Shown: in pieces, positions 1 through 64,000 of the stretch
Layout of the letters: each line of letters starts with the position of its first letter
Numbering within the stretch: position 1 is the first letter of the stretch
Assembly (NCBI RefSeq): GCF_024138715.1
Contig: NZ_CP092074.1
Coordinates: 1,302,001 to 1,366,000, forward strand
Source: Emticicia sp. 21SJ11W-3
Lineage (GTDB): Bacteria; Bacteroidota; Bacteroidia; Cytophagales; Spirosomataceae
Reading direction: 5' to 3'
DNA: 64,000 bases
Made by a program: the position numbers and the translations under genes
The notes under the pieces: model-generated
What the model saw: the letters and a program-made list of their open reading frames with translations, nothing else
Database searches by the model: none
Told to the model about the DNA's origin: nothing

Positions 1-1036
1 CCTCTTTGTCGTTTTGTTTTTCGAGAATCATAATAAAATTACCATCGGGCTCTCTTAACACGGCACTTTCGGGTAATGTTCTGGCATTTCTGGTGCCGGT
101 TAATACCCTGGCGTTAATAAACATGCCCGGTATAAGCCTTTGCTCCTGTTGTTCATTGTTCAGGTGCACATGCACATTTATTGCTTTTGAGTCTGTTTCA
201 AAGGTCTGGCCTACCAAAAAAACGGTTCCTTCAACTTTATCGCCCAGTCGCGTGTCATCAATCAATACTTTTTGCCCTTTCTGTATCTTAAAAGCATCTT
301 TTTCAAGAATTTTCAGCTCAACGTGTAAATGCTCTTTGCTGATAATCTCAAACAGTACATCATTCGGGGCTACAGATTTGCCGGTATTGATATTTGTGGC
401 TTTAATGTATCCGCTAATAGGGGCAATAACATTTAATGTTGCAGATATATCGCCTTTTTTAAGTGCAGCAATATTAGTGCCTAATACCCGAAGCTTGGCC
501 TCAAGCGATTTCACAAGCGCCTGGTTACCTTTAAAGTCTGACTCTGCCTGCTGCAATTTCTTTTTTACGCCAATGTCTTCAGCATTCAGGCTTTGCTGGC
601 GCTCCAGTTCTTTTTCAAGAAAACCGGTATGAGCTGCTGCCTGAAAGTAATCCTGCTGCATCTGAATAAATTCAATAGATTCAATTGTAGCCAGTACAGT
701 ACCCTTGGTAACAAATCTGCCTGGAAGCGCATTATTAGAAGAGATATTTTTTACAAATCCATTAATGGGCAGGCTGATAGAGGCCATGTTTTCTGGTGGC
801 ACATCGGCCACCCCATTGGCTTTAATTTCTTCATTCAGAGGCATCTCTTTAAAGTTCCCCATGCCCAAATGCAGGTTTTTGAATTGTTCAGCCGATACCC
901 TTATAAGCCCGGTGGGGGCATTGGTTTGTGCCGAATCGGCAGTAGAGGTATTTGCCTTTTTATTTGCATCAGTGTTCTTTGTGCAGGCCTGTAGGCATGC
1001 AAGGCCTATCAGTGACAGAAAAAAATATGTTTTCAT
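1..1036 (-). CDS. RND efflux periplasmic adaptor subunit (partial)
   Basis: This is the membrane-fusion (HlyD/CusB-like) subunit that links the inner-membrane pump to the outer-membrane channel in a tripartite efflux system. Translation of the minus strand from ATG at 1036 gives a lipoprotein-type signal (MKTYFFLSLIGLACLQAC), a first beta/lipoyl half, a helical hairpin rich in Gln/Glu/Leu (about residues 130-190), and a second lipoyl half containing APISGYI. A beta-barrel segment with a PGMF motif follows. About 345 codons are visible and the C-terminus lies beyond the window. It starts 13 bases after the TolC-like gene stops, so it is the third gene of the efflux operon. No His-rich metal-binding tail is visible in the part present. 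The family call is firm; the transported metal is not known. Confidence 0.88.
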   Translation of the reverse strand, partial: MKTYFFLSLIGLACLQACTKNTDANKKANTSTADSAQTNAPTGLIRVSAEQFKNLHLGMGNFKEMPLNEEIKANGVADVPPENMASISLPINGFVKNISSNNALPGRFVTKGTVLATIESIEFIQMQQDYFQAAAHTGFLEKELERQQSLNAEDIGVKKKLQQAESDFKGNQALVKSLEAKLRVLGTNIAALKKGDISATLNVIAPISGYIKATNINTGKSVAPNDVLFEIISKEHLHVELKILEKDAFKIQKGQKVLIDDTRLGDKVEGTVFLVGQTFETDSKAINVHVHLNNEQQEQRLIPGMFINARVLTGTRNARTLPESAVLREPDGNFIMILEKQNDKE

Positions 1037-49990: not shown

Positions 49991-50566
49991 TTGATTTATT
50001 TGTTGCATGAACCAAAATTACTACTGAAAAAAGTCGCTTCCATATCGCTTCTTGCATTGCTGGTGTGTAATATGCTGGGCTCTACGTTTGTCATGCTTTT
50101 AGACAAATGGCAGGAGGAACGCGTAGTACACGCAAATGTGACTTTTCAGGAAAAAGGAGAGTTTCTGGTTATGAAAGTGCCAATGGCCATTCCGTATATG
50201 GCCAGTTGGAGCGAGTCTGAAGAGACAGACGGTCTCATTATCTTCAAAGGCGATTTTTTCCGTACTTATCAGCGCAAATTTGAAAGTGATACCCTTTACA
50301 CTTATTGCAAGAAAGAAAATGCAAGCCGCGAGAACGTTTTCAGTTTGCTGCAACAGGTAAAAAAACAGGTAAACGATGAGCCCACCGGCTCTGGTAAAAA
50401 GGCGCTCAATTTTTTTAAGAATCTCACTAAAGATTATACTCAGTTCGGTAGTAGCACAATTGCCTACTTCTGGGTTGAAGACCTCCCGTTAAAAATCTAC
50501 ACTTATCAGGAGTTTATTCCTGCTTCAACGTTATTTGTTAATTCTCCACCTCCCGATTTAGCTTAA
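49991..50566 (+). CDS. Hypothetical membrane-anchored protein, related to the gene at the window end
   Basis: This protein is up to 191 aa, starting with an anchor (LLKKVASISLLALLVCNMLG). A domain with EFLVMKVPMAIPYMASWSESEE, GLIIFKGDFFRTYQRKFESDTLYTYCKKE and a C-terminus PPPDLA follows. The pattern VKVPLAIPY...VDGxIxxxGxxYxxxKRKxxxDTL belongs, to my recollection, to uncharacterised Bacteroidota proteins frequently found beside TonB-receptor genes. There is no in-frame ATG before the anchor. The listed start is a TTG at 49991; CTG at 50024 matches the beginning of the related gene near 63.8 kb. Function unknown. Confidence 0.6.
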   Translation: MIYLLHEPKLLLKKVASISLLALLVCNMLGSTFVMLLDKWQEERVVHANVTFQEKGEFLVMKVPMAIPYMASWSESEETDGLIIFKGDFFRTYQRKFESDTLYTYCKKENASRENVFSLLQQVKKQVNDEPTGSGKKALNFFKNLTKDYTQFGSSTIAYFWVEDLPLKIYTYQEFIPASTLFVNSPPPDLA

Positions 50567-50821: not shown

Positions 50822-51742
50822 ATGAAATTATTTTACAAGTTTTTACTTGTGCTGGTAGGTGGTGCGGTTTTCAATGCGCAAGCCCAAATGCCTCATGACG
50901 CCATTTATATGAACAAAAAATCTATTTGTATAGCTACAACCTATTCAAATAGCCAGTGGAGCGAATATTGGGAGAATAAATTAAAACGCGAAAATTTCAA
51001 TATAGGTACGCACACTACACAAAGTGTTATGCCTATGATAGCCTACGGTATTACCAAAAAACTGAATGTTCTTGCCGGCTTACCTTATGTGTGGACAAAA
51101 ACCAGCGCAGGTAATCTGATGGGGCAGCAGGGTTTTCAGGATGTATCGGTATGGTTAAAATACAATATGGTGCAATCGGCAAACGGCCTTTCCTTGCATG
51201 GAGTATTGGGCGGCTCGTTACCGGTAAGCAACTATGTACCAGATTTTCTCCCGATGTCAATTGGCCTTAAATCCAAAACAGCTACTGCACGTTTAATTGC
51301 TCACTACAAGCATACTTCTGGTTTTTATATTACCGCACACGGAAGCTACGTTTTCCGCAGTAATATAAAGGTAGACAGAGATGCCTATTACGCTTACGAC
51401 AAAGTTTATAACACCAATGAAATAAGCATGCCTAACGCTACTGATGTAGCCGCCCGGATGGGTTACTACAAAAAAGGGATTCAGGCCGAATTATTCATTG
51501 ACAAAAACACTTGCGTAGGCGGAGATTACATCCGTAGAAACGATATGCCTTTTCCGACGAATAACATGAAATCATCGGGCGTAGGTTTCTATGGTAAGTT
51601 TCAGCCAAAAAATGTAGGGTTCAATGTAATGATCAGAAGAGTAATAGATGGCGAAAACATGGGCCAGGCTACTACAATATCAGCCGGTTTCCTGTATCAG
51701 ATAAATTTCAAGAGTAAGTCTGAACAGGTAACAAAAAAATAA
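50822..51742 (+). CDS. Outer-membrane beta-barrel protein (transporter-like)
   Basis: This 306-aa exported protein has a signal peptide (1-22, ending NAQAQ). The rest alternates polar and hydrophobic residues in short strands separated by Gly/Asn turns (MPMIAYGITKKLNVLAGLPYVWT, GVLGGSLPVSNYV, FYITAHGSYVFRSNI, TISAGFLYQINF), the pattern of a 12-14-strand barrel. It resembles the MetA-pathway phenol-degradation transporter family in outline. It begins a run of ten closely spaced plus-strand genes. Two cysteines (SICIA and NTCVGG) are notable. Passage of a hydrophobic or aromatic solute is inference only. Confidence 0.7.
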   Translation: MKLFYKFLLVLVGGAVFNAQAQMPHDAIYMNKKSICIATTYSNSQWSEYWENKLKRENFNIGTHTTQSVMPMIAYGITKKLNVLAGLPYVWTKTSAGNLMGQQGFQDVSVWLKYNMVQSANGLSLHGVLGGSLPVSNYVPDFLPMSIGLKSKTATARLIAHYKHTSGFYITAHGSYVFRSNIKVDRDAYYAYDKVYNTNEISMPNATDVAARMGYYKKGIQAELFIDKNTCVGGDYIRRNDMPFPTNNMKSSGVGFYGKFQPKNVGFNVMIRRVIDGENMGQATTISAGFLYQINFKSKSEQVTKK

Positions 51743-51816
51743 AATTTGCAGAAAAGATTTCTAACAGAAAATTTGCTTCCCCGGGCAGTTCGCTCAATTG
51801 AATACGGGGCCGTAAT

Positions 51817-53355
51817 ATGAAAAAAATACATGTACCATTTTTAGTAATAGTAATATTGAGTCTGGTTGTTTCGTCTTGCAATAAAGATTTGGAAGAATCA
51901 TTGAAAGAGGCCTATATCCCGGCAAAATTAGATGAAAAAGGAGGAACCTGGAAAACTTATGTACTCGCCAGCGCTGATGAATTTCCGGTGGCAGAGCCAA
52001 AAGCGGCAGGTTCGGCAGAGTACCAGGCAGAAATAGCAAAACTGAAAACCACGGTTTCGACCATTACCCCGGAAAACAAAAAAGCAGTAGCTTACTGGGG
52101 TGCAGGTGCCGTGTATCGCTGGAACGAAATAGCTCGTGAGCTGGCAGCCAGATATAACCTTCCGCCTGCTTCAAATGCAGAGGGCAAGTATCCGGTTCCT
52201 GATGCTGCCAACCCATTGGCAGACCCTAAGTTTCCGTTTGCCAATCCGCCATATACAGCCCGTGCACTAGCTTATTTAAGTGTAGCGCAGTATGACGCAC
52301 TGGTGGCCGCGTGGAACTACAAGTTTAAGTATAACCGCAAGGCTCCTTCAAAAACAGATGCTACTGTTTCTGCTTTGTTGCCGGTTTCTGATTTACCGTC
52401 TTACCCGTCTGAAGATGCAGTTGTGGCTGCGGCCTCATATACCATATTGGTGGCGATGTTCCCCGGCGAGGTGCCTTTGTTGGATGCCAAGCTAGCCGAA
52501 GCCAAAAATGCCCGTATCTGGGGTGGTATGAACGTTGATTCTGATATTTCGGCAGGCGATGCCCTGGGCAAAGCCGTAGCTGCCAAAGTAATGGGTCGCG
52601 CAAAAACAGACGGCATGGGTGCCGCCAATAATCAGACAGTCAATGCTGCTGCAATTGCCAATGCCAAAGCACAAGGCTTGAAGTCGGAGTGGTTAAGCCA
52701 GGAGATTCCTGCCCGCCCGCCAATGTTGCCTAACTATGGTACCGTACAGACCTGGAATTTTGATAAAACAGCTATGCTGGCCATGCGCCCAAGCCCTCCG
52801 CCAGCATTAGATAGTGACGAGTTTAAAAAAGACCTTGACGAGCTTAAGGCCATTGATAAAAATCAGACGCGTGAGCAGGCCCGTATTGCCAATTACTGGT
52901 CAGACGGTGCCGGCAGCTACACGCCTCCTGGTCACTGGCATCGTGCCGCTGCTAATCTCTGTTTCCAGAATAAGTTCAGTGAGTTGGCAACAGCCCGCAC
53001 GCTGGCATTGCTGGGTACTGCCGAGATGGATGCAGGTATTGCTTGCTGGGACGCCAAGAACTATTATTATTATCCGCGCCCTCAGCAATTCGGTATCAAA
53101 ACCTCTGTTGGTTTGCCCAATTTTCAGTCTTATACCTCGGGACACTCTACTTTTTCAGGTGCCGCCGCCACAGTATTGGGCTCTATCTTCCCGACGGAGG
53201 CTGAAAAGTTGAATGCGATGGCTCAGGAAGCATCCAATTCAAGGGTTTATGGACTGATTCATTATCGTTTCGACTGTGTTAAAGGTCTTGAACACGGTAA
53301 AAAAATTGGTCAGTATGCCATTGCCCGTGGAAAGGCCGATGGTTCTGGTTTATAA
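51817..53355 (+). CDS. Vanadium haloperoxidase-like PAP2-fold lipoprotein
   Basis: This 512-aa protein has a lipobox (LVVSSC, Cys21), so it is tethered to the envelope. The helical body ends in the complete PAP2/vanadium-haloperoxidase signature: Lys414-X6-Arg421-Pro (KNYYYYPRP), Ser441-Gly-His443 (YTSGHS), and Ser475-Arg476-X5-His482-X3-Asp486 (SRVYGLIHYRFD). In haloperoxidases these residues hold vanadate; in phosphatases they hold phosphate. The length and the N-terminal extension suit the bacterial vanadium-haloperoxidase branch rather than lipid phosphatases. It would oxidise halide with peroxide, or hydrolyse a phosphoester; the sequence alone does not decide. It is flanked on both sides by barrel genes. 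Confidence 0.8.
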   Translation: MKKIHVPFLVIVILSLVVSSCNKDLEESLKEAYIPAKLDEKGGTWKTYVLASADEFPVAEPKAAGSAEYQAEIAKLKTTVSTITPENKKAVAYWGAGAVYRWNEIARELAARYNLPPASNAEGKYPVPDAANPLADPKFPFANPPYTARALAYLSVAQYDALVAAWNYKFKYNRKAPSKTDATVSALLPVSDLPSYPSEDAVVAAASYTILVAMFPGEVPLLDAKLAEAKNARIWGGMNVDSDISAGDALGKAVAAKVMGRAKTDGMGAANNQTVNAAAIANAKAQGLKSEWLSQEIPARPPMLPNYGTVQTWNFDKTAMLAMRPSPPPALDSDEFKKDLDELKAIDKNQTREQARIANYWSDGAGSYTPPGHWHRAAANLCFQNKFSELATARTLALLGTAEMDAGIACWDAKNYYYYPRPQQFGIKTSVGLPNFQSYTSGHSTFSGAAATVLGSIFPTEAEKLNAMAQEASNSRVYGLIHYRFDCVKGLEHGKKIGQYAIARGKADGSGL

Positions 53356-53404
53356 AAACTAATGGTTTAATCAGCTTGCTTAAATTTATTCAAACGTATT
53401 TTCA

Positions 53405-54475
53405 ATGAAAAAAATATATTATTTTTTCTCACTAGCCATGCTTTTGGGATCAATCAAGGGGTTCTCGCAAGGTTGTATTGCCGTACGCCACATGGCATCG
53501 GCAACGGGTAACCCCAACAGCCCGGCCTCAATGATGAAAGGCGGCCAGTTTCAGTTTACGGCTTCATACAGATATTTGCATTCTTTCCGCCATTTTGTTG
53601 GTACCCAAGAGCAAAAAGAACGTATAGAAAACGGTACTCAGGTTATTAACACTTCTCATGCTTTTGATTTTGGCCTGAGTTACGCTGTTAATCCGCGTCT
53701 GAGCTTTTCATTGAATTTGCCTTATCTTGACAACGACCGTTCTTCTCTTTATGAACACTACGGCAACTCAATTGAAGCTAACCCGGAGCAGAAACGTTTT
53801 CATACGTATTCTAAAGGGGTGGGCGATATGCGTGTATCTGCTACCTACTGGTTGTTCAATCCGCTTACCCATCTGAAAGGTAATCTGGCTATAGGGGTGG
53901 GAGTCAAAGCTCCAACCGGTGATGCCAACGTTCAGGGAGACTTCCATAAACTGGATAAAAACAAAAAAGAATACATACAGCGCAAAGCCCTTGACCAATC
54001 AATGCAATTGGGCGATAGCGGCTGGGGATACAGCATTGAAATGCAGGGTTATCAGTCGGTATTCAAAAATGCCTCTGTTTACTACAATGGTTTTTATATG
54101 TTCAGCCCTAAAACCGTTAATGCGGCTACCGGCTTTTCTGTACCTGACCAGTTTGCAGGTCGTGCGGGTTTAAGCTATTCGGTTGCACCTAAAAAGGGTA
54201 TTTCATTAGCGTTGGGTGGCAGGGTAGAAGGCTTGCCTGCTATAGACCGCATTGGCAATAGTGAAGGCAGCCGCAGACCCGGATACATTATCTCTGTTGA
54301 GCCAAGTGTCATTATTAATACGCATCACCATTCGTTTATTTTCGGTGTTCCTTATGCGGTTGTTCGTAACAGAATAAAATCATGGAGCGACATGCAAGAC
54401 CCAACCGGTAAAAAGCACGGCGATGCAGCATTTGCAGACTACCTGATTACGGCAACTTACGCTTACAGGTTCTGA
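53405..54475 (+). CDS. Second outer-membrane beta-barrel protein
   Basis: This 356-aa exported protein has a signal peptide (1-22, ending GFSQ), then Cys24 and strands running to a terminal aromatic (ATYAYRF), the usual end of an outer-membrane barrel. It includes FDFGLSYAVNPRLSFSLNLPYLDND, GVGDMRVSATYWLF and SFIFGVPYAVVRNRI. A phenol-transport-family likeness (LPYL...GDxRVSATYW) is seen, as for many OM transporters. It follows the haloperoxidase-like gene by 49 bases and is 2 bases from the first AhpD-like gene, so it is certainly cotranscribed with that one. Confidence 0.72.
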   Translation: MKKIYYFFSLAMLLGSIKGFSQGCIAVRHMASATGNPNSPASMMKGGQFQFTASYRYLHSFRHFVGTQEQKERIENGTQVINTSHAFDFGLSYAVNPRLSFSLNLPYLDNDRSSLYEHYGNSIEANPEQKRFHTYSKGVGDMRVSATYWLFNPLTHLKGNLAIGVGVKAPTGDANVQGDFHKLDKNKKEYIQRKALDQSMQLGDSGWGYSIEMQGYQSVFKNASVYYNGFYMFSPKTVNAATGFSVPDQFAGRAGLSYSVAPKKGISLALGGRVEGLPAIDRIGNSEGSRRPGYIISVEPSVIINTHHHSFIFGVPYAVVRNRIKSWSDMQDPTGKKHGDAAFADYLITATYAYRF

Positions 54476-54477
54476 TT

Positions 54478-55020
54478 ATGGCACACATCAAATTGTTGAA
54501 TGAGGAGCTTCCGGGTATTTCCGGGCTTCTCAATCATAATCCGCGTACGGCCATACCCTTGTTAAACCTGGCTGAAACCCTTTTGAGGGGGCCGTCAACC
54601 TTAACAAGAGGCGAACGCGAATTGATTGCTTCTTATGTTTCGCACCTGAACAATTGCCATTTTTGCCATACTTCGCACGGAGCAGCGGCGGCAGCTCATT
54701 TAGGTTGTGATTTGAATATAATAGATGATATCAAACAAAATTTTGCCGAAACTGCTATTTCTCCAAAGCTGAGAGACTTGCTTAACATTGCTGCACAAGT
54801 GCAAAAAGGCGGCAGGCATGTAACAGAAAAGGAGATTGAAGTAGCCAGAAATGAAGGAGCAACCGACGAAGAGATTCATGATTCGGTACTGATTGCGGCA
54901 GCATTTTGTATGTTTAATCGCTATGTAGATGGCTTAGGCACGTGGGCGCCGAAAGAAAACGAAGCCTACCGTGAAATGGGACAGAGAATGGCCTTTGCCG
55001 GTTATAATCGTCCTCGCTAA
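54478..55020 (+). CDS. AhpD/CMD-like peroxidase-related protein (copy 1)
   Basis: This 180-aa carboxymuconolactone-decarboxylase-family protein is of the alkylhydroperoxidase D type. The redox motif is intact: NNCHFCHTSHGAAA, a CxxC with the proton-relay His four residues after the second Cys, preceded by RELIASYVSHL. A second half (LRDLLNIAAQVQKGGRHVTEKEIEVARNEGATDEEIHDSVLIAAAFCMFNRYVDGLG) is typical of the peroxidase-related branch. There is no signal peptide, so it works in the cytoplasm, probably as a disulfide/peroxide redox protein. It starts 2 bases after the barrel gene. It is closely similar to copy 3 at 63.0 kb. Confidence 0.88.
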   Translation: MAHIKLLNEELPGISGLLNHNPRTAIPLLNLAETLLRGPSTLTRGERELIASYVSHLNNCHFCHTSHGAAAAAHLGCDLNIIDDIKQNFAETAISPKLRDLLNIAAQVQKGGRHVTEKEIEVARNEGATDEEIHDSVLIAAAFCMFNRYVDGLGTWAPKENEAYREMGQRMAFAGYNRPR

Positions 55021-55118
55021 GAAAACAGGTTTAACCTGTCTGTTTTTCCCTGATTATTTATTGTACCACATCTGGCATCGGCTGCAAACAGCCGGTAAGC
55101 CTTGTTATTGCCTAAATT

Positions 55119-55679
55119 ATGCCTCATATATCACTTCCTGACCATCTGCCCGGTATTACAGGGCTTTTAGAGTATAGCCAGGATACCGCAGCGCCTATTC
55201 GTGAACTGACACAAATTTTGTTAAGAGGAGACAGTTCGCTGACCCAGGGCGAAAGAGAGTTAATAGCCACCATAGTATCGCACAATAATGAATGCCGGTT
55301 TTGTACGGCTGCTCATACTGCCGCTGCCGATTTGCTATTGGGTGAAACCGAAACCTGCGAATTGGTAAAACATGATTTAGAGAATGCTCCGGTGAGCGAT
55401 AAAATGAAGGCCTTACTAACCATTGCCAGAATGGTGCAGAAAAGCGGGAAGAGCGTCACCCCTGAAGCTATAGCCAATGCTAAAGCAAAAGGCGCAACCG
55501 ACATGGAAATACATGATACTGTGCTTATAGCTGCACTTTTTTGTTTGTATAACCGCTATGTTGACGGCCTGGCCAGTATAACGCCAGGCGACCCCTCATT
55601 TTATCAGTACTTAGGTGAAAGAATAGTGAACCACGGCTACACGCGTTTGCCGCAGGGCTATGACCACCTGAAGAAATAA
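55119..55679 (+). CDS. AhpD/CMD-like peroxidase-related protein (copy 2)
   Basis: This 186-aa homologue of copies 1 and 3 carries the active motif NECRFCTAAHTAAA (CxxCxxxH intact) and the common C-terminal half with MEIHDTVLIAALFCLYNRYVDGLA. It is more divergent than the other two (LASITP where they read LGTWAP). A short palindrome (55025-55039) lies in the 98-base gap behind copy 1. It is cytoplasmic and probably redox-active by family. Its start is 98 bases after copy 1, still within the same run. Confidence 0.87.
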   Translation: MPHISLPDHLPGITGLLEYSQDTAAPIRELTQILLRGDSSLTQGERELIATIVSHNNECRFCTAAHTAAADLLLGETETCELVKHDLENAPVSDKMKALLTIARMVQKSGKSVTPEAIANAKAKGATDMEIHDTVLIAALFCLYNRYVDGLASITPGDPSFYQYLGERIVNHGYTRLPQGYDHLKK

Positions 55680-55729
55680 GAATGATGAGGATTAATTAAT
55701 CTAATCCTATATTTTAACCGAGCTTTAGA

Positions 55730-58495
55730 ATGAAAAATATTTTTACCTGTATAATCTCCTTATTGTTGTTTTCAGCAGGAGCTTTCGCCCAGAAAAGTGT
55801 CATCAAGGGCAAAGTGACTGATGCTGAAAATCAAAAACCTCTGATAGGTGTTTCGGTTTTTCTGAAAGGAAAAGTTTCAGGAACCATCACTAATGCCGAA
55901 GGAAATTTTGAACTGAATGCCTCTCTTCCGGCCACATTGGTAATTTCAATGGTGGGCTATGAGCGCCAGGAAATTGCGGTGGCCAGCGAAACCACATTGA
56001 GTATCTCATTGAAAACCGCGTCTGAAGACCTGAATCAGGTGGTTGTTTCTGCTTCCAGAATTGAAGAAAGCATTTTGAAGTCGCCGGTGAGTATTGAAAA
56101 GATGGACTCAAGAGGTATCCAACAATCTCCGGCAGCCAACTTCTACGATGCTTTGCTCAACATGAAATCGTTAGATATTGTTACCAGTGGCCTTACCTAC
56201 AAGCAAATCAACACCAGAGGGTTTAATACCACGGGTAACAGCCGCTTTTTGCAATTGGTAGACGGCGTTGATAACCAGTCAGCTGGGTTGGGTTTTGCCA
56301 TGGGTAATCTGCATGGCCCCAACGATATTGATATAGAAAGCGTTGAGCTGATTCCGGGAGCTGCCTCAGCTTTGTATGGCCCGATTGCATTCAACGGAAT
56401 GTTGCAGATGCGCACAAAAAATCCATTTGATTATCAGGGGCTAAGCGCGCAAACCAAAGTAGGCGTAAACCATTTGAATGACGGCACAGGCCTGGGGGCA
56501 AAACCATATTATGACCTGGCCGTGCGATATGCCAAAGCATTTAAAAACAAATTTGCTTTCAAGGCAAATGTCGCTTACCTCAGAGGCACCGACTGGTATG
56601 CGAATGATTATACAGATATAGACCCCAACACGCCTTTAGCTAACCGTGGGCCGAATAACCCGGGCAAAAATGCCTTGAATATTTACGGCGACGAGGTTGC
56701 ACAGACAATTGATAAAATAGGGCGGGTGTCAAGAACGGGTTATGAAGAAAAAGACCTGGCCCAGTATGGTGTATATAGCCTGAAGTTAAACGGAGCATTG
56801 CATTACCGTATTACAGATAATCTGGAAGCCATCTATCAGGCAAATTTTAGTCAGGGTATTGCACAGTACACCGGTAGCAGCCGTTTTGTAATTAATAATT
56901 TTTATCTGATGCAGCATCGCCTTGAATTGAAAGGCAGCAATTTTTATGTGAGAGCTTATTCAAATCAGGAAGATTCGCAGGATTCTTACAACAGCCGTTC
57001 TTTAGGGCAGCTCATTAACCGTATGTGGGTAAAAGACCTGAATGGTAACACGGTTGCTCCGGCTCAGGCTGATGCCACCTGGTTTCAGCGTTATTCGGCG
57101 GCTTATAACGGAAACGTCAATGGAGTTTCTGCGCAAAACCATTCTGCCGCCCGGGCATTTGCCGACCAGGGAAGGCTACTACCCGGAACTGCCGCATTTG
57201 ATGCTGCCAGAGACCAGCTGATTCATACCCAGGGCTTAAGCGGAGCAGGTATTTTCAGCCGTTGTGGTTTAAAACACATGGAAGGCATGTACGATTTCAG
57301 TGAATTACTGAAAGTAGTAAGCATTCAGGTAGGTGCCAACTACAGAAGATATTATCTGGATACTCAGGGAACCTTATTTGATGACAAAGGCAAGAACCTC
57401 ACAAACGACGAGTTTGGTGCGTTTATTCAGGCTTCAAAGTTATTGGTAAATAATAAACTGAAAATTACACTGTCAGGTCGTTACGACAAAAACGAGAACT
57501 TTGATGGCCGTATAACACCAAGGGCTTCGGCAGTATTTTCACCAAACGACAACAATCATTTCAGAGCTTCCTATCAGACAGGTTTCCGCAACCCGGTTAT
57601 CGGCGACCAGTATATTAAGCTGAACGTCGGGCCAATCATTATTCTGGGCGGTGCACCAGTTAATTCTGTTGGCATGAACGCCTATGAAAACTCTTTCACG
57701 GCGGCATCAGTAGGGGCTTTTGCCAGCGCGGCGGGTGCTCAGCTTGGGCAGGGTGTTCCATTCCCGACCGCTATTGCCAACAACAAAGACAAACTGGTGA
57801 AATCGAACGTGCCATACATCCAGCCAGAGAAAGTTCAGAGCTTTGAGGTGGGTTATAAAGGAGTTTTCAGTCAGAAAATACTGTTTGATATCAATTATTA
57901 CTACAGTCAATACAAAGACTTCATCATTAATACGGTGGTTATCCGCCCTGATAATAATGTGCTGTTACCAGACGGCTCTATTAACCCTGCTGCAGCAGGT
58001 GATATTCTGGGAGGCAAAACACAGGCGTTTCAACTTTATACCAATGCCGCCGATAAGGTGTCTATTCAAGGTGTAAGTGCAGGTTTGTCTTATTTGTTTC
58101 CTAAAAACTACCGCCTGAATACGAACGTAACCTGGATTGACTTCAACCTGATGGATGCTAACCCGAGTAATATTCCTGCCTTTAATACACCAACCTGGAA
58201 AACCAACGTGGTGTTCGGTAATCCAAAACTGACAGACAAATTCGGCTTTAACGTGGCATGGCACTGGCAAAGTGCTTTTGACTGGTACGGTACCTTTACG
58301 ACGATGTGTCCGGGCAAAATCAATGCTTATAGCTTGCTCGATGCGCAGGTGAGCTACAAACTGCCTGCCATCAAATCGGTTATCAAGCTGGGTGCTTCAA
58401 ATCTTACTAACCAATACATTGTGCAGGCTTATGGCTCTCCGGCCGTTGGCGGGTTGTATTATGTTAGTCTGAATTTTGATGAATTAATGCGATAA
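55730..58495 (+). CDS. TonB-dependent receptor with carboxypeptidase-regulatory-like domain
   Basis: This 921-aa outer-membrane gated channel has a signal peptide (1-20, ending AFAQ). A CarboxypepD_reg-like domain (about 22-105; VIKGKVTDAENQKPLIGVSVFLKG) is followed by the plug (about 125-230; GFNTTGNSRFLQLVDGVDNQS, IESVELIPGAASALYGPIAFNGMLQM) and a barrel to the end. It lacks a neighbouring SusD lipoprotein, so it is a stand-alone receptor rather than a glycan-uptake pair. TonB-driven import of a scarce small molecule is expected; siderophore, vitamin, metal and aromatic ligands all remain possible. It lies 50 bases after copy 2 of the AhpD-like gene. Confidence 0.9.
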   Translation: MKNIFTCIISLLLFSAGAFAQKSVIKGKVTDAENQKPLIGVSVFLKGKVSGTITNAEGNFELNASLPATLVISMVGYERQEIAVASETTLSISLKTASEDLNQVVVSASRIEESILKSPVSIEKMDSRGIQQSPAANFYDALLNMKSLDIVTSGLTYKQINTRGFNTTGNSRFLQLVDGVDNQSAGLGFAMGNLHGPNDIDIESVELIPGAASALYGPIAFNGMLQMRTKNPFDYQGLSAQTKVGVNHLNDGTGLGAKPYYDLAVRYAKAFKNKFAFKANVAYLRGTDWYANDYTDIDPNTPLANRGPNNPGKNALNIYGDEVAQTIDKIGRVSRTGYEEKDLAQYGVYSLKLNGALHYRITDNLEAIYQANFSQGIAQYTGSSRFVINNFYLMQHRLELKGSNFYVRAYSNQEDSQDSYNSRSLGQLINRMWVKDLNGNTVAPAQADATWFQRYSAAYNGNVNGVSAQNHSAARAFADQGRLLPGTAAFDAARDQLIHTQGLSGAGIFSRCGLKHMEGMYDFSELLKVVSIQVGANYRRYYLDTQGTLFDDKGKNLTNDEFGAFIQASKLLVNNKLKITLSGRYDKNENFDGRITPRASAVFSPNDNNHFRASYQTGFRNPVIGDQYIKLNVGPIIILGGAPVNSVGMNAYENSFTAASVGAFASAAGAQLGQGVPFPTAIANNKDKLVKSNVPYIQPEKVQSFEVGYKGVFSQKILFDINYYYSQYKDFIINTVVIRPDNNVLLPDGSINPAAAGDILGGKTQAFQLYTNAADKVSIQGVSAGLSYLFPKNYRLNTNVTWIDFNLMDANPSNIPAFNTPTWKTNVVFGNPKLTDKFGFNVAWHWQSAFDWYGTFTTMCPGKINAYSLLDAQVSYKLPAIKSVIKLGASNLTNQYIVQAYGSPAVGGLYYVSLNFDELMR

Positions 58496-58565
58496 AATTG
58501 ATAAAAGGGGTAAAAACAACTTTTGCTTAATTACCTCTTTATAGCAATACTTAAATTTTACCAAC

Positions 58566-60824
58566 ATGAAACTTTTTGAATTAGTATCAGGAAGAGCTAA
58601 ATATTGGATTTTGCTGGTATCGGGCTTGATGGTTTTTGCCTGCAGTAGTGATAAGAGTGAAGAAATGGTTAAAATACTGGCGAAGATTCATCAGGAAAGT
58701 TTTAAAAGAACGAATCCTTTTTCGCCAAAGGCAGAAATTGCCTTTTATGATTCGATGAGTACACTGGCTCAGGGGAATCCATACAAAAGCTTTATTACAG
58801 ATTTTTATAAGGCAAATGCCTATCTGAAAAACGGTGAAGAAACAAAAGCGGTAACCTTATTGGAAACCATATTGCCTATGGCTTTAACAAAGTTTCAGGG
58901 TAATGCCGAAAGAACCCTGACCAGCCTGGGAATTGCCAGTTTGCGACTGGCCGAACGCCAGAATTGTGTGAATAATCATACGGCAGAATCGTGCGTGATA
59001 CCCATAATTAATACAGGTATCCATAAAATAAAAGGCGGGTCTCGCAGAGCCATAGAGGTTTATGAGACAATTCTTTCAAGAAACCCTTCTGATTATGAAG
59101 CACAGTGGCTACTAAACATAGCCTACATGACCATAGGTGAATATCCGGCTAAAGTACCGGCTCAATATCTGATTCCTGATTTAGATAAAGACAAGTCAGG
59201 CTATGATTTGAATCCTTTTACTGATGTAGCTCCGGGCCTCAACCTGAATTTAAAAAACAAAGCAGGTGGAACTATCCTGGAGGATTTCGATAATGACGGA
59301 TATCTGGATATAGTAATTTCAGACCTGGGGCTTGATGGTTCAATGCATTATTTTAAAAACAATGCAAACAACACTTTTAGCGATGTGTCGGAGAAGTCGG
59401 GCCTGTCGAGATTTAAAGGTGGGCTGAACATTATGCAAACCGATTATAACAATGATGGATTCATCGACATTTTTGTTTTAAGAGGGGCCTGGATGCCCGA
59501 CCCGTTTGGTAAACAGCCTAATTCGTTATTAAAGAATAATGGAAATGGAACTTTTACTGATGTGACGATTGACAGCGGCTTGTATTCGTTGCACCCAACA
59601 CAGGCCGGGGTATGGAGAGATTTTAATAATGATGGCTGGCTGGATTTATTCATTGGCAACGAAACCGCCAATATGGGCGAAATGCACGGTTGCGAGCTGT
59701 ATATAAATAATAAAAACGGCACTTTTACCGATATAACCATTGACGCCGGCTGCGACCTGAATCTGTTTATTAAAGGCGTAACCGCAGGCGACTACGACAA
59801 TGATGGCTGGCAGGACATATTTATTTCAACCCATCAGGAAACCAAAGTGCTTTTAAAGAATAAAGGAGTGCAAAAGAATGGAAAACTAAAATTTGAAGAT
59901 GTTACGCAGGCTTCCGGTTTGAGTGAGCTAAGAAATTTTACGTTCCCGACCTGGTTCTGGGATTACGATAACGACGGCTGGCTTGATATATTCGTTTGCG
60001 GATACCAGGCCGACCACTCAATGGCTTATTCAGTAGCTACTGATGCGTTGGGCATACCTAACCGCGGAAGTAAAATGTATCTTTTCAAAAACAACCATGA
60101 TGGCACTTTCAGGGATGTATCGGTTGAAGCGGGCATCAGCCATAGCATATTTGCGATGGGGTCTAATTTCGGAGATATAGATAATGACGGATACCCGGAT
60201 ATGTATCTCGGTACCGGAAATCCTGATTACCAGTCGTTAGTTCCTAATAAGCTTTTCAGAAACATCGGAGGTAAAAAATTTGCTGATGCCACCATTTCAG
60301 CGCGTGTGGGTAATCTGCAAAAAGGGCACGGTGTGGGTATCTCTGATTTAGATAATGACGGCGACCAGGACATTTTTATTGAAGTGGGTGGGGCTTATCC
60401 CGGTGACTCCTACAATAATTCATTGTATCTGAACCCCGGTCAGAATAATAACCGCTGGATTAAACTCATACTGGAAGGCAAAAGAAGTAACCGTTTAGGA
60501 ATCGGTGCCAGAATAAAAGTTACGTTCAAAGAAAATGGAATAAGCAGGTCTGTTTATCAGGACCTGAGCTCAGGGGGAAGTTTTGGTTCATCATCTCTCA
60601 GAAGAGAGATAGGCATCGGAGAGGCCAACATAATTGATGAAATTTCGATCATCTGGCCGGGTTCTGGCACAAAGCAGGTTTTCAGAAATATAAAGCCAAA
60701 TCAACTGCTTAAAATTACCGAGGGAAACAATAAACCCAAAGAAATTAACATTAAAACCCTTAATTTTGGAGGAGATAATAAAAATATTCCCATTTGTATT
60801 ACACCTGCCGTTAAAGCCATTTAG
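58566..60824 (+). CDS. CRTAC1-type VCBS/FG-GAP repeat lipoprotein with ASPIC/UnbV domain
   Basis: This 752-aa protein has a lipobox (GLMVFAC, Cys26), an N-terminal helical TPR-like part (about 40-210), and seven FG-GAP/VCBS calcium loops of the form DxDNDGxxD (for example DFDNDGYLD, DYNNDGFID, DIDNDGYPD). A C-terminal ASPIC/UnbV domain (about 650-725; NRLGIGARIKVTF...QDLSSGGSFGSSS...IWPGSGTKQVF) follows. This is the CRTAC1 architecture. Such surface propellers bind partners or ligands and have no known enzyme activity. In Bacteroidota they are often seen near haloperoxidase-like genes, to my recollection. It is 70 bases downstream of the TonB receptor. Confidence 0.88.
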   Translation: MKLFELVSGRAKYWILLVSGLMVFACSSDKSEEMVKILAKIHQESFKRTNPFSPKAEIAFYDSMSTLAQGNPYKSFITDFYKANAYLKNGEETKAVTLLETILPMALTKFQGNAERTLTSLGIASLRLAERQNCVNNHTAESCVIPIINTGIHKIKGGSRRAIEVYETILSRNPSDYEAQWLLNIAYMTIGEYPAKVPAQYLIPDLDKDKSGYDLNPFTDVAPGLNLNLKNKAGGTILEDFDNDGYLDIVISDLGLDGSMHYFKNNANNTFSDVSEKSGLSRFKGGLNIMQTDYNNDGFIDIFVLRGAWMPDPFGKQPNSLLKNNGNGTFTDVTIDSGLYSLHPTQAGVWRDFNNDGWLDLFIGNETANMGEMHGCELYINNKNGTFTDITIDAGCDLNLFIKGVTAGDYDNDGWQDIFISTHQETKVLLKNKGVQKNGKLKFEDVTQASGLSELRNFTFPTWFWDYDNDGWLDIFVCGYQADHSMAYSVATDALGIPNRGSKMYLFKNNHDGTFRDVSVEAGISHSIFAMGSNFGDIDNDGYPDMYLGTGNPDYQSLVPNKLFRNIGGKKFADATISARVGNLQKGHGVGISDLDNDGDQDIFIEVGGAYPGDSYNNSLYLNPGQNNNRWIKLILEGKRSNRLGIGARIKVTFKENGISRSVYQDLSSGGSFGSSSLRREIGIGEANIIDEISIIWPGSGTKQVFRNIKPNQLLKITEGNNKPKEINIKTLNFGGDNKNIPICITPAVKAI

Positions 60825-60859
60825 CGCCTTAATGGCAGGATTCAAAGATTTAAAGACTG

Positions 60860-61714
60860 ATGAGTACTAAAAGTTTAATTCTGATTAATCCATTTTCGGG
60901 GCGGTATTCTTATGAAGAAAAACTTTTCTTCTGGTTGCGCTTTGGCGTTTTAGGCTGCTTTGTGGGGCATGGCTTCTGGGGGCTTGTATTAAAGAAAGGC
61001 TGGGTGCCATTTTTTAAGGTTTTCTTTATTGATGAACCCATAGCTTACAATTTTATGCCTGTCATTGGTACTATGGATATTCTGATTGGCTTGGTTGTGT
61101 TTTTTTATCCCAACAGAGCTTTGCTGTTATGGGCGTCTTTCTGGACATTATTTACGGCCATGCTGCGCCCTTCGGCCAGTATGGGTATGTCTGAGTTTTT
61201 TGAAAGAGCTGGTAATTATGGTATACCAATTTTGTTTTTGCTGTTGCATGGCTTGCCTGCTACTGCTAAACAATGGTTTGAGAAACTGAAGCCACTGGGC
61301 TCGGTATCCTATATGCAGGCAAGTGTAATTGAGTGGGTATCAAGGCTGAGTCTGTTTAGCTTATTGGCCGGGCATGGCGGGTTGGCGGTATTCATGAACC
61401 ACCCTACACTAATTAAGAACATGACAGGGGTAGGGTTGCCGATGACCGGAGTAAACCTGCATATTTTTGGTCTGGTAGAGATAGCGCTGGCGTTTCTGGT
61501 TTTGCTCAAGCCTCGCATACCTGGTCTGTTAATCTTTATTTGCTTATATAAATTGGGCTATGAGTTGCTTTTCCCGATTGTGGGTAACCCGATAGACATT
61601 TTTGAAACCATTGAACGAATGGGTGATTACGTTTTGCCCATTATACTTTTTGAGTATTATCGATCAAAATATTTTAACCAGAGCCGGCAACATACAATGG
61701 TGCCGAAAGCCTGA
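60860..61714 (+). CDS. Membrane protein with two tandem DoxX-like halves
   Basis: This 284-aa integral membrane protein is built from two DoxX-like four-helix halves. Half one: FVGHGFWGLVLKKGW, PVIGTMDILIGLVVFFYP, FFERAGNYGIPILFLLLHG. Half two: LLAGHGGLAVFMNHP, HIFGLVEIALAFLVLLKP, ETIERMGDYVLPIILFEY. The matching GHG, GxxDI/EIalG and ER.G.Y.lPI motifs in each half show an internal duplication. DoxX domains occur in quinone and oxidative-stress complexes; the role here is not known. It lies 35 bases after the CRTAC1-type gene and 27 before the MFS transporter. Confidence 0.75.
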   Translation: MSTKSLILINPFSGRYSYEEKLFFWLRFGVLGCFVGHGFWGLVLKKGWVPFFKVFFIDEPIAYNFMPVIGTMDILIGLVVFFYPNRALLLWASFWTLFTAMLRPSASMGMSEFFERAGNYGIPILFLLLHGLPATAKQWFEKLKPLGSVSYMQASVIEWVSRLSLFSLLAGHGGLAVFMNHPTLIKNMTGVGLPMTGVNLHIFGLVEIALAFLVLLKPRIPGLLIFICLYKLGYELLFPIVGNPIDIFETIERMGDYVLPIILFEYYRSKYFNQSRQHTMVPKA

Positions 61715-61741
61715 TTACTAACCCTAAAAACCTGAAAGAAA

Positions 61742-62983
61742 TTGGAAACTAACCCGGCACAGACAATTTTGTCTCCTAAAATAAGAGCAATGGCATTTAT
61801 TCTTTGCGTAATCAGCTATGCTTTCGGAGGTACGGTTTCAACGCTGATGTCGGTGTATTTACCGGTTGCGGTACCACAATTGCTTAACGGCACAATAACT
61901 GAGGCCCGGCTTGGTGAAGTTGGTGCCTACATTAGTGCAGTATCGTTATATGGCTGGATGATAGGCGGAATACTTTTTGGAATCATAAGCGATAAAATCG
62001 GTCGTAAAAAAGTTCTGGTTTTTGTTACAGCTCTTTATGGCGCCGCAACCCTTCTTACAGTTTTTGTGCCTAACTGGTATATGCTGCTGGTTTATCGTTT
62101 TCTTTCCGGCATGGGTGTGGGTGGGGTGTTATTGGTAACTACTATTTATATTTCAGAAATTTGGATTGAGAAAACGCGTCCGATTATGGTAGGTGTGCTG
62201 GCAGTTGCTTTTCCGTTGGGCATTGTGGCATCAGGAGGTTTAAACGTACTTTTTTCAGAGTGGCGTCAGGCTTTCTGGCTTGGGCTTATTCCTTTAATTA
62301 CAGTAGTGCTGATAGGATTATTGCTGCCTGAATCTCCCAAGTGGAAAAACATCCAGAATGGGCCCGCTACTTCAATTAATGATTTGTTTAATGAAGCTTA
62401 TCGCCCGAATCTGGTTACTGGTTCAGTTATTTTCGGGGCAGTGTTGATAGGCCTGTGGGGCATTTTCTCGTGGTTGCCTACCTGGGTGCAATCTTTGTTA
62501 CCTGCCGGGCAAGACGGCCAGAAAGAAAGAGGAATAACCATGATGCTGCTGGGTATGGGAGGTATTGTCGGTGGGGTGATGTCTGGCTTTCTGATACGCG
62601 CTTTTGGAAGCCGAAAAACGCTGATGCTTACCTTTGTGGGTTGTGTAGGGGCCTGTTGCCTGCTTTTTATAACCAATAAGGTATTCAGTACGATTGTTTA
62701 TGCCGAAGCCGGTTTGCTTGCTCTATGTTTTGGTATCAGTCAGGGTGCATTATCAAGTTATATTCCTGAGTTATTTCCTACCAGCATAAGGGCAACGGCA
62801 ACAGGTTTTTGTTTCAATGTGGGTCGTTTCTTTACTGCCACTGCTGTGTTTTTTGTAGGTAGTCTGGTTACCCTATTTGGTGGATTTGGAAACGCGCTGC
62901 TTGCCTTTTCAGTAACATTTGTAGTGGCCCTGCTGGCCGCATACCTAACCCGGGATAAGAAGTCGAACCTGATTAACTCATAA
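61742..62983 (+). CDS. MFS transporter
   Basis: This 413-aa major-facilitator permease has twelve helices. Motif A is clear in loop 2-3 (GGILFGIISDKIGRKKVLVF) and repeated in loop 8-9 (GGVMSGFLIRAFGSRKTLML). The YRFLSGMGVGGVLLVTTIYISEI segment recalls the sugar/aromatic-acid subfamilies (AAHS, sugar porter). It probably imports, with protons, the product made available by the upstream envelope proteins, but direction and substrate are inference. The likely start is TTG at 61742, with a purine-rich stretch upstream; the ATG at 61790 would remove the 16 residues before the first helix and remains possible. Confidence 0.88.
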   Translation: METNPAQTILSPKIRAMAFILCVISYAFGGTVSTLMSVYLPVAVPQLLNGTITEARLGEVGAYISAVSLYGWMIGGILFGIISDKIGRKKVLVFVTALYGAATLLTVFVPNWYMLLVYRFLSGMGVGGVLLVTTIYISEIWIEKTRPIMVGVLAVAFPLGIVASGGLNVLFSEWRQAFWLGLIPLITVVLIGLLLPESPKWKNIQNGPATSINDLFNEAYRPNLVTGSVIFGAVLIGLWGIFSWLPTWVQSLLPAGQDGQKERGITMMLLGMGGIVGGVMSGFLIRAFGSRKTLMLTFVGCVGACCLLFITNKVFSTIVYAEAGLLALCFGISQGALSSYIPELFPTSIRATATGFCFNVGRFFTATAVFFVGSLVTLFGGFGNALLAFSVTFVVALLAAYLTRDKKSNLINS

Positions 62984-62994
62984 TATTTGTAGCA

Positions 62995-63564
62995 ATGGCA
63001 CATATAAAATTACCTGAAGAAGATTTACTGCCCGGTATACGCGGGTTAATGGCTTTCAGGCCAGATACAGCCAAACCACTTAATGCTTTGGCTGAGGTGT
63101 TGCTAAGAGATGAAAACAATGGTTTGTCAAGGGGAGAACGCGAGGCCATTGCCACGTACGTATCTTACCTGAACGACTGCCTCTTTTGCCAGCATGTGCA
63201 TGGCGCTGCCGCGCAATGTTATCTGGAAGACGACGGCACGCTGATTGGCCAGATAAAGAGAAATTTCAATGAGGCACCCATTTCAGACAAACTGAAAGCG
63301 TTGCTGGCCATTGCAGGCAGCGTGCAGAAAGGAGGAAAAAACGTGACTACTGAACAGGTTGAAGCAGCCAGAGCCACAGGCGCAAGCGATAAAGAGATTC
63401 ATGACGCCGTTTTAATAGCCGCCTCATTCTGTATGTTTAATCGTTACGTTGACGGTCTGGGAACATGGGCACCCACCGACCCACAGGTATATATACCCAG
63501 AGGTATGCGCATAGCGGCTGAAGGTTATGCCAGCTTTGATGCCATGAAAAGCATAGGAAAATAG
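62995..63564 (+). CDS. AhpD/CMD-like peroxidase-related protein (copy 3)
   Basis: This 189-aa third paralogue starts 11 bases after the MFS gene. The active motif is NDCLFCQHVHGAAA (CxxCxxxH intact), and the C-terminal half (EIHDAVLIAASFCMFNRYVDGLGTWAP) matches copy 1 almost exactly in its last part. The N-terminus is four residues longer (LPEEDLLPGIRGLMAFRPDTAK). It is cytoplasmic. Its location at the far end of the run, separated from the other copies by four unrelated genes, argues that it belongs to the same transcription unit rather than being a chance neighbour. Confidence 0.88.
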   Translation: MAHIKLPEEDLLPGIRGLMAFRPDTAKPLNALAEVLLRDENNGLSRGEREAIATYVSYLNDCLFCQHVHGAAAQCYLEDDGTLIGQIKRNFNEAPISDKLKALLAIAGSVQKGGKNVTTEQVEAARATGASDKEIHDAVLIAASFCMFNRYVDGLGTWAPTDPQVYIPRGMRIAAEGYASFDAMKSIGK

Positions 63565-63609: not shown

Positions 63610-63638
63610 ACACTGTGCATTATTTTGGTGCACAGTGT
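63610..63638 (+). terminator. Probable terminator of the haloperoxidase-type operon
   Basis: ACACTGTGCA and TGCACAGTGT are separated by 9 bases and followed by a T-containing tract. It lies 46 bases after the third AhpD-like gene and is the first clear stem-loop after that gene. Confidence 0.65.
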
Positions 63639-63795: not shown

Positions 63796-64000
63796 TTGAA
63801 AAGAATAGCATCCATAGGCCTCTTAATGCTTTTGCTCAATCATTTGTTCGGGCTTACAATTGCCATGCTGTTTTTTGAAGATAATTATCAGACACATTCA
63901 AATACAATTATAGAAGACAAGTGGAAGGTAATAAAATTGCCGGCTTCAAACAAAACCATAAGTATTGACAATACCATAAAAGAAGGTTTAATAAGAAGTG
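63796..64000 (+). CDS. Hypothetical membrane-anchored protein, partial (paralogue of the 50.0-kb gene)
   Basis: The last reading frame runs off the window. From a TTG at 63796 it reads LKRIASIGLLMLLLNHLFG and continues with an anchor, then IIEDKWKVIKLPASNKTISIDN. This aligns with LKKVASISLLALLVCNMLG and VMKVPMAIPY of the protein at 49991-50566. No in-frame ATG exists between the upstream stop and the anchor, so TTG (or ATT/ATA) is the likely start. It is the same uncharacterised family. The gene probably leads into another TonB-receptor-type locus beyond the window, by analogy with its family (inference). Confidence 0.6.
   Translation, partial: MKRIASIGLLMLLLNHLFGLTIAMLFFEDNYQTHSNTIIEDKWKVIKLPASNKTISIDNTIKEGLIRS

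Follow-up and report, generated by a model that had tools for sequence, protein, structure and literature searches.

The closest described counterparts of the gene cluster discussed here are operons headed by a small exported protein with a proline motif at its C-terminus. In Bordetella, the exported protein CruR heads a TonB-receptor operon; it is described with a RAPP motif three residues before its end, which is required, and a spacing of 45 residues to a CXXC site that is conserved to 1-2 residues (PMC9426467). Small proteins with RAPP or RGPP tails are reported to be enriched before TonB-receptor genes (PMC12992588), and leaders of sec and yidC genes are recognized as small, unannotated proteins with an N-terminal targeting segment, a spacer of more than 40 amino acids and a C-terminal motif (PMC7897499, PMC10987492). 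In vitro, ribosomes stall on an LPPP-tailed candidate leader (uA_LPPP), and leaders ending in prolines have already been reported upstream of sec genes in Bacteroidota (PMC10987492). From Flavobacterium, an iron-responsive haem uptake operon is described that contains a DoxX gene (PMC9331221). Here, we analyze a ten-gene locus of Emticicia sp. 21SJ11W-3, located in a stretch of 64,000 nucleotides (contig NZ_CP092074.1, 1,302,001-1,366,000; the window), in which a haloperoxidase-like lipoprotein, AhpD-like proteins, a TonB-dependent receptor and an MFS transporter stand behind a leader of comparable build. Judged by its gene neighbourhoods in other genomes, the locus very probably is a functional unit. 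That it represents an envelope oxidation-and-uptake island of Spirosomataceae and their relatives, with two co-selected modules under a regulatory leader, comes close to an even chance in our view.

Ten plus-strand open reading frames (ORFs), A to J, fill positions 50822-63564 with intergenic gaps of 74, 49, 2, 98, 50, 70, 35, 27 and 11 bases, confirming the ten genes in 12.7 kb with gaps of 2-98 bases that a first-pass annotation of the window had listed. Its gene-family assignments are upheld by Pfam and NCBIfam scans against curated cut-offs, with soft spots at A and H, which fall just under theirs. The limits it gave the unit had to be moved at both ends: the gene at 49991-50566 also belongs to the unit, which was thought to start at 50822, and the supposed end at 63564 is followed by a second leader copy, a TonB receptor and a DUF3179 protein. 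The features are as follows.

49991-50566, plus strand: leader c3, 191 amino acids from a TTG start (N-terminus uncertain), with a hydrophobic N-terminal segment and the ending SPPPDLA
50822-51742, plus strand: A, outer-membrane beta-barrel-like protein (PF13557 at 20.4 bits, under the cut-off of 22)
51817-53355, plus strand: B, vanadium-haloperoxidase-like lipoprotein of the PAP2 superfamily (PAP2/haloperoxidase at 43.6 bits, cut-off 27.2)
53405-54475, plus strand: C, second barrel (PF13557 at 23.7 bits, cut-off 22)
54478-55020, plus strand: D, AhpD-like TIGR01926 protein with CxxC (CHFC; 83.5 bits against a cut-off of 81.8)
55025-55039, plus strand: terminator-like hairpin in the D-E gap, from the hairpin scan
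55119-55679, plus strand: E, AhpD-like TIGR01926 protein with CxxC (CRFC; 84.5 bits against 81.8)
55730-58495, plus strand: F, TonB-dependent receptor with a CarboxypepD_reg domain (Pfam)
58566-60824, plus strand: G, CRTAC1-like protein with FG-GAP and UnbV_ASPIC domains above cut-off and a lipoprotein-like start; accessory
60860-61714, plus strand: H, double DoxX-like membrane protein (23.8 bits, under the cut-off of 25); accessory
61742-62983, plus strand: I, MFS transporter (MFS_1 cut-off reached); core of module 2
62995-63564, plus strand: J, AhpD-like TIGR01926 protein with CxxC (CLFC; 96.1 bits against 81.8)
63610-63638, plus strand: terminator-like hairpin of 13 pairs after J, stronger than the D-E hairpin
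63796-64000, plus strand: second leader copy with a TTG start, running off the window and ending in TPPPELT in stretch L163

Both leader copies of the window start with TTG in the ORF lists. The receptor behind the second copy belongs to the FecA-like cluster (L163:4450-6660) and is followed by the DUF3179 protein (L163:6719-7909), so that the island extends past the window.

The conservation of the locus was evaluated by searching 150 genomes of the same family with the B, I and E proteins, and gene order was read in 81 stretches, in 40 stretches found with the leader profile and in 80 named loci; the genes were mapped by simply calling the longest ORFs, so that some are missed, such as B in L043. 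Relatives of B (E-value up to 1e-20) occur in 129 of the 150 genomes, relatives of the transporter I (1e-40) in 58 and relatives of the AhpD-like protein E (1e-15) in 63. Co-location was counted in the 58 genomes with a strong match to E out of the 63 with any match. All 58 contain a B relative, and in each of the 57 having both E and I the two lie within 8 kb of each other. The distance between E and B is at most 10 kb in 29 of the 58 genomes, representing 8 of 14 genera, and joined and separate arrangements coexist inside the genera g1, g5, g9 and g17. Since the arrangement differs inside genera, inertia alone poorly explains the pairing of B and E, although the family counts are not phylogenetically independent. 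Of 295 genomes in a class-wide sample, 17 contain B at an E-value up to 1e-80 and 22 contain E at 1e-30, and the six genomes with an E match of at least 63% identity all have B.

Speaking against so tight a bond, module 2 does not lie within 10 kb of B in the other 29 of the 58 genomes, a number from which contig ends may hide a few joined copies. The same separation favours reading the locus as a chance run of unrelated genes. This reading, whose probability we regard as close to negligible, was rejected because the neighbourhood counts contradict it: re-association of the modules was seen in 8 of 14 genera, a leader opens 17 of the 20 stretches selected for module 2, and A, an obligate neighbour of B, directly precedes it in 77 of 80 named loci. 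The first-pass annotation had taken the genes to belong together and named their never being found together elsewhere as the sign of a chance run; their homologues are in fact repeatedly co-located in other genomes.

The locus resolves into two modules. Module 1 has the order leader-(C)-A-B or leader-A-B-C, with C near B in 32 of the 80 named loci, and module 2 the order leader-D and/or E-F-I-AhpD-like genes, with two to four AhpD-like genes in all. In the window they are fused, D following C after 2 bases and module 2 having no leader of its own, and Runella-type loci retain both leaders (L053, L120, L200). We place the module boundary in the 2-base gap between C and D because standalone copies (leader-D-E-F-I) hold D in module 2, as its first enzyme gene. 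The D-E hairpin was considered as the boundary and dropped for the same reason. Outside the family, one stretch reads leader-AhpD-F-I-AhpD-AhpD (L150) and one from Saprospiraceae DUF3179-I-AhpD-AhpD-x-A-B (L250). In distant genomes, two AhpD relatives with weaker matches (L272, L273) lack neighbours from any of the locus families, and stretch L271 gave no match with the simple ORF caller. A DUF3179 protein terminates many copies of the locus and stands behind an AhpD-like gene in L270.

Genes for CRTAC1, DoxX and additional haloperoxidases have been recruited repeatedly, and the accessories G and H are missing from many copies. G follows F in the window, L058, L047 and L125, precedes F in L118, L127 and L128, and stands alone behind a leader in L038 and L161, the three positions being found in different genera. 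In L168 and L169, a DoxX pair protein occurs close to A-B-C, and haloperoxidase paralogues are found inside module 2 in L097, L121, L122, L125 and L224. It counts against a fixed island that G is absent from two of three close relatives (L057, L059; genomes G074, G094). The idea of one ten-gene pathway is thereby borne out in its association of genes and has to be amended in its unity, as there are two modules that separate and rejoin, with G and H as accessories. As a side observation, a methionine-synthase-like protein (Meth_synt_2) occurs among the locus genes of some Larkinella- and Runella-type genomes (L118:10276-11328, assigned by Pfam; L123:12657-13721).

The element that both modules share is the leader. 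The c3 family consists of proteins with a median length of 183 amino acids, an N-terminal hydrophobic segment and a C-terminal S-P-P-P, and no Pfam or NCBIfam model describes it: the 27 members scanned gave stray matches in one or two members each. The Emticicia genome holds two copies (E-value up to 0.01), both flanking the ten-gene locus, and the profile matches 40 of 296 Bacteroidota genomes. From 55 matches listed, 41 outside the own genome were taken and 40 were readable (L171 gave none; L163 and L182 are excluded from these 40). In 39 of the 40 copies the gene after the leader is a TonB receptor or a relative of a locus gene: barrel A in 10, a haloperoxidase paralogue in 8, C in 2, an AhpD-like gene in 2, a CRTAC1-like gene in 1 and a TonB receptor in 16, of which 9 are confirmed by Pfam and 7 rest on weak matches to our own receptor profiles and on length; the remaining copy precedes a TauE-type protein. 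Among these targets are TonB receptors of the siderophore/FecA-like kind.

Within the 80 named loci, a leader lies at most four genes upstream of B in 55. A point against a common leader control is that 22 of the 80 show none, some contigs ending early; a search for small ORFs ending in PP within 3.5 kb before A in these 22 loci gave three unlikely candidates only. Since these loci show no leader, A-B can do without one. A divergent haloperoxidase and two CRTAC1-type proteins stand behind the leader in another family, with a TonB-receptor-like gene further on (L156, L174), possibly a parallel island.

The leader ends in an almost invariant manner. Comparing 155 distinct members (including the 27 rows used for profile building) with 3041 other ORFs of the same stretches, which were not de-duplicated, PP occurs within the last 15 residues in 155/155 leaders against 114/3041 other ORFs, and PPP in 129/155 against 6/3041. 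A profile built without the C-terminal part recovers the same set, again with PP, so the motif is not an artefact of the search. Two to five residues follow the prolines in 141 of the 155, the first of them being E or D in 95. A hydrophobic N-terminal segment is present in 145 members, and 4 have another one further on.

Between the domain and the motif lies a linker, analyzed in the 78 of 155 leaders that share less than 60% identity with each other. From a conserved tyrosine at the domain end (Y149) to the prolines it spans 37.9 +/- 1.6 residues. Of the segments measured it is the least conserved: it carries 0.75 bits per column, the domain 1.46 and the motif 3.32. A comparably long and variable stretch after the membrane segment varies more in length (standard deviation 2.9, in the 58 of 78 members with both anchors). 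Before module 1 the linker measures 38.4 +/- 1.2 residues and before receptors 36.2 +/- 1.6. About 38 residues corresponds roughly to the part of a nascent chain that the ribosome encloses.

These features place c3 close to the known arrest leaders. With its median of 183 amino acids, an N-terminal segment in 145/155 members, the motif in 155/155 and no family model, the family shows the wide characteristics of arrest leaders, and in size, targeting segment, long spacer and C-terminal motif it resembles the sec/yidC leaders (PMC7897499, PMC10987492). The genes behind c3 differ, being uptake and oxidation genes: in the 40 copies read, c3 was not seen to take the place directly upstream of sec or yidC, 39 of the next genes being a TonB receptor or a locus gene. 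The likeness to CruR-bfrG, with its copper-responsive DUF2946 leader, is close. Both are small exported proteins encoded by the first gene before a TonB receptor, with a C-terminal di-proline a few residues before the stop, a constant spacing between an inner element and the motif, and a long gap to the next gene (PMC9426467). In contrast to CruR, c3 is longer, has SPPP instead of RAPP and lacks a conserved cysteine, the family also heads haloperoxidase and AhpD/MFS loci, and a DUF2946 profile found no match among 27 c3 members at an E-value up to 1. With the RAPP/RGPP-tailed proteins, c3 has in common that it is small, secreted or membrane-targeted, ends in a proline motif and stands upstream of TonB receptors; it differs in carrying SPPP without the class-defining arginine and in heading haloperoxidase loci as well (PMC12992588).

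Judging from this architecture, the chances are even that the leader is a regulatory nascent peptide. A further step would be to regard the SPPP-tailed proteins as a new family of nascent-chain sensors of Bacteroidota, with a membrane-targeted domain that folds or binds a ligand near the tunnel exit and tunes a polyproline pause, outside the Sec/YidC context and without RAPP; we propose this tentatively, at somewhat less than even chances. With the same caution, one leader type would then control TonB-receptor, haloperoxidase and AhpD/MFS loci.

Several observations weigh against a regulatory leader. Its tail is SPPP and holds no RAPP-like motif, and pauses at plain polyproline are usually relieved by EF-P. 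Constant spacing is not unusual in this protein, as well-conserved stretches inside the leader vary even less (standard deviation 0-0.4), and the alignment may favour equal linker lengths. Because its inner domain has conserved residues, the leader may simply work as a periplasmic protein of the ordinary kind. Behind it, terminator-like hairpins show no enrichment, with 20 in 122 gaps against 76 in 437 controls or, for gaps of 60-200 bases, 17 in 80 against 54 in 209. We take seriously, at a weight still below one half, that the leader is an ordinary membrane-anchored periplasmic accessory of uptake loci whose prolines bind the receptor, the barrel or a TonB-type partner. The conserved inner domain, the equally fixed domain spacings and the missing hairpin excess would suit such a protein, as would its place beside a TonB receptor or locus gene in 39 of 40 copies, where a partner is expected. 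What it accounts for less readily is that PP always falls within the last 15 residues, that the linker keeps a near-constant length despite little sequence conservation, that the leader also heads A-B loci in which the next gene is no TonB receptor, and that the architecture is so close to that of CruR-type leaders.

RNA structure in the gap behind the leader was compared for 122 of the 155 leaders (those with a same-strand gap of 15-300 bases) and 200 of the 437 control junctions, giving a mean z of -2.10 (n 122) versus -1.41 (n 200), with a Mann-Whitney p of 1e-4 that is overstated because the sequences are related. This excess of structure is modest, a further point against a regulatory leader; the downstream gap of the window's own leader reaches a z of -4.95. 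Intrinsic terminators in the leader gaps were considered and are unsupported, there being no hairpin excess.

Other signals in the region carry little information. Terminator-like hairpins are no commoner than in shuffled sequences (13 versus 14.9), and a sigma-70-like promoter scan did not rise above shuffles either (26 versus 29.3). The pattern TTTG-17..23-TAnnTTTG, which we take to be a promoter of the Bacteroidota type, was found 6 times in the window (4.28 expected), the sole match in the locus lying inside the MFS gene, and is uninformative. The single weak palindrome of the first-pass annotation is probably the D-E hairpin at 55025-55039, of which two of three close relatives retain a version, the third having lost it (by eye). 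A further inverted repeat lies at 55079-55094, just before E, and its arms change together in three close relatives (by eye; 4 genomes). It could be an operator or an RNA hairpin, four genomes being too few to judge.

Turning to the enzymes, the best structure-solved relative of B is the vanadium-dependent haloperoxidase 4cit (E-value 9.6e-11, over residues 300-502), presumably the iodoperoxidase of Zobellia galactanivorans. Acid phosphatases match B less well, at E-values of 7.2e-6 and worse. The vanadate-site motifs K-X6-RP, SGH and SR-X5-H-X3-D are present in 19/19 B orthologues. Two further pocket residues are Trp at K-3 (W411; 19/19 orthologues and 37/37 rows of a wider set) and Phe at H-7 (F436; 19/19 and 34/37), where the haloperoxidase alignment likewise has Trp and Phe and the best phosphatase alignment Met and Gly. 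We take the suspected halide-acceptor Phe to be the one at H-7 and the Trp to be a second haloperoxidase pocket residue. The 37-row alignment comprises orthologues, more distant copies and 5 paralogue rows; 1-4 of its rows deviate at several active-site positions (His, Arg or Lys replaced), which suggests inactive or repurposed copies, or misaligned paralogues. In fungal chloroperoxidase, a Phe is suspected of accepting the halide (PMC10427571).

Taken together, best solved match and pocket residues indicate that B is probably a haloperoxidase-type enzyme, in agreement with the first-pass annotation, which had left it between an oxidizing and a dephosphorylating role; the pocket appears to lean to oxidation and to weaken the phosphatase reading. 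B has the active-site motifs of 4cit including Trp and Phe; it differs in that the likeness is restricted to residues 300-502 and in being paired with the barrel gene A and often a leader. The vanadate-site motifs are common to haloperoxidases and acid phosphatases, as the alignments of B also show, and this counts against the assignment. If B were instead a PAP2-superfamily phosphatase freeing phosphate or an organic moiety at the envelope, F and I would import the product. PAP2 is the only Pfam match of B, and the phosphatase matches at 7.2e-6 and the shared motifs point the same way, yet a haloperoxidase is the best solved match, Trp and Phe stand at K-3 and H-7 in all 19 orthologues in place of Met and Gly, and the companion genes are of redox families. 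We consider the phosphatase quite unlikely.

The start of B is that of a lipoprotein. The lipobox cysteine is present in 19/19 orthologues, and the sequence C-N-K-D-L-E-E resembles, without fully matching, the surface export signal C-X-K-(D/E)2 described for Capnocytophaga lipoproteins (PMC5080379); the lysine is found in 28 of 37 rows and the acidic pair is unconserved. The nearest named relatives of B come from Emticicia strains (88-90% identity), and the same-family matches among named relatives are mostly from Spirosomataceae genera. The barrels next to it are less certain, which tells against an outer-membrane partner: of four A and C relatives scanned, the two of A and one of the two of C have no Pfam match, and the other C relative matches PF13557 with 23.2 bits. 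Another haloperoxidase-like gene of the same genome (L264:9807-19857) has as neighbours an FG-GAP/CRTAC1-type protein of very large size and a large TonB receptor, and no leader was found in that stretch. The pairing of haloperoxidase-like, CRTAC1-type and TonB-receptor genes hence recurs outside the ten-gene locus.

The AhpD-like proteins D, E and J are all the matches of their own genome in the search with E (E-value up to 1e-15), E being the best conserved. They match PF02627, which covers PcaC-type decarboxylases and the thiol-redox kind alike, and we take their CxxC to be a mark of the latter. All three lie over the curated cut-off of the AhpD-like family TIGR01926 and carry its CxxC; what sets them apart from that family in general is the occurrence of 2-4 paralogues around one MFS transporter. 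Both TIGR01926 and DUF3179 proteins are listed among families with selenoprotein members, CxxU and UxxC/T (PMC13188914), and since both families include selenoproteins a redox chemistry of these companions is supported. The parts therefore agree in their family assignments with the envelope oxidation, uptake and thiol redox that the first-pass annotation had proposed.

No AhpC-like and no SusD-like gene was recognized among the ten genes. The transporter I scores 152.1 bits against the aromatic acid/H+ symporter model TIGR00895, far under its cut-off of 418.55, and F scores far under every curated receptor cut-off tried, its matches to haemin receptor models staying below cut-off. H misses the DoxX cut-off with 23.8 bits against 25, and a relative in L169 reaches 30.5.

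These weak receptor matches are among the grounds for a different view of the whole, as an island mainly for the uptake of iron, haem or a metallophore, where the haloperoxidase- and AhpD-like proteins would serve oxidant control or ligand release. It also fits that the leader heads siderophore/FecA-like receptors elsewhere, and the locus resembles the hfpR-DoxX-hfpY haem operon of Flavobacterium in being a TonB-receptor operon of Bacteroidota with a DoxX protein (PMC9331221). The two differ, as no HfpY-like gene was recognized here and the accessible description of the hfp operon includes no haloperoxidase or AhpD-like gene (PMC9331221). Against such an island stand the distance of F from every curated receptor cut-off and the fact that no siderophore synthesis gene or haemophore was recognized among the ten genes; we regard it as unlikely, a little less so than the phosphatase.

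For the oxidation-and-uptake island, the parts can be combined into a working model. The sequences themselves show the gene content, the conservation and repeated re-association of the modules, the leader family with its C-terminal motif and near-constant linker length, and the haloperoxidase pocket residues; stalling, halide oxidation, cargo and order of steps are inferred. The ribosome would pause at the leader prolines at a point where the conserved domain has just left the exit tunnel. Depending on whether the nascent leader folds, is targeted to the membrane or binds a ligand, the pause would change and downstream expression would be set accordingly. B would bind vanadate and use hydrogen peroxide to oxidize a halide, most likely iodide or bromide, at the cell surface or outer membrane. 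The small molecule imported by F and I would either encounter this chemistry or result from it, and the CxxC proteins D, E and J would reduce peroxide-type or disulfide products in the cytoplasm, with G (CRTAC1) and H (DoxX) as optional extras. That the steps follow each other as oxidation, import and reduction is doubtful, if conceivable.

Among the papers listed in searches of the open-licence literature, none was found to describe this locus, or to report leaders with an SPPP tail upstream of TonB-receptor or haloperoxidase genes. Haloperoxidases, uptake islands and arrest-type leaders are known kinds; their combination and the leader family look new. Nascent-chain regulation has so far been associated mostly with Sec/YidC genes and with some copper and TonB loci. 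Should this leader prove to stall ribosomes, such regulation would extend to many uptake and haloperoxidase loci of Bacteroidota through a non-RAPP motif, and the conserved leader domain would offer a handle for finding the signal. In this locus, moreover, an enzyme of the haloperoxidase type belongs to a defined and portable set of genes that also supplies a receptor, a transporter and thiol-redox partners, and deletions in this set can directly test the purpose of such bacterial enzymes.

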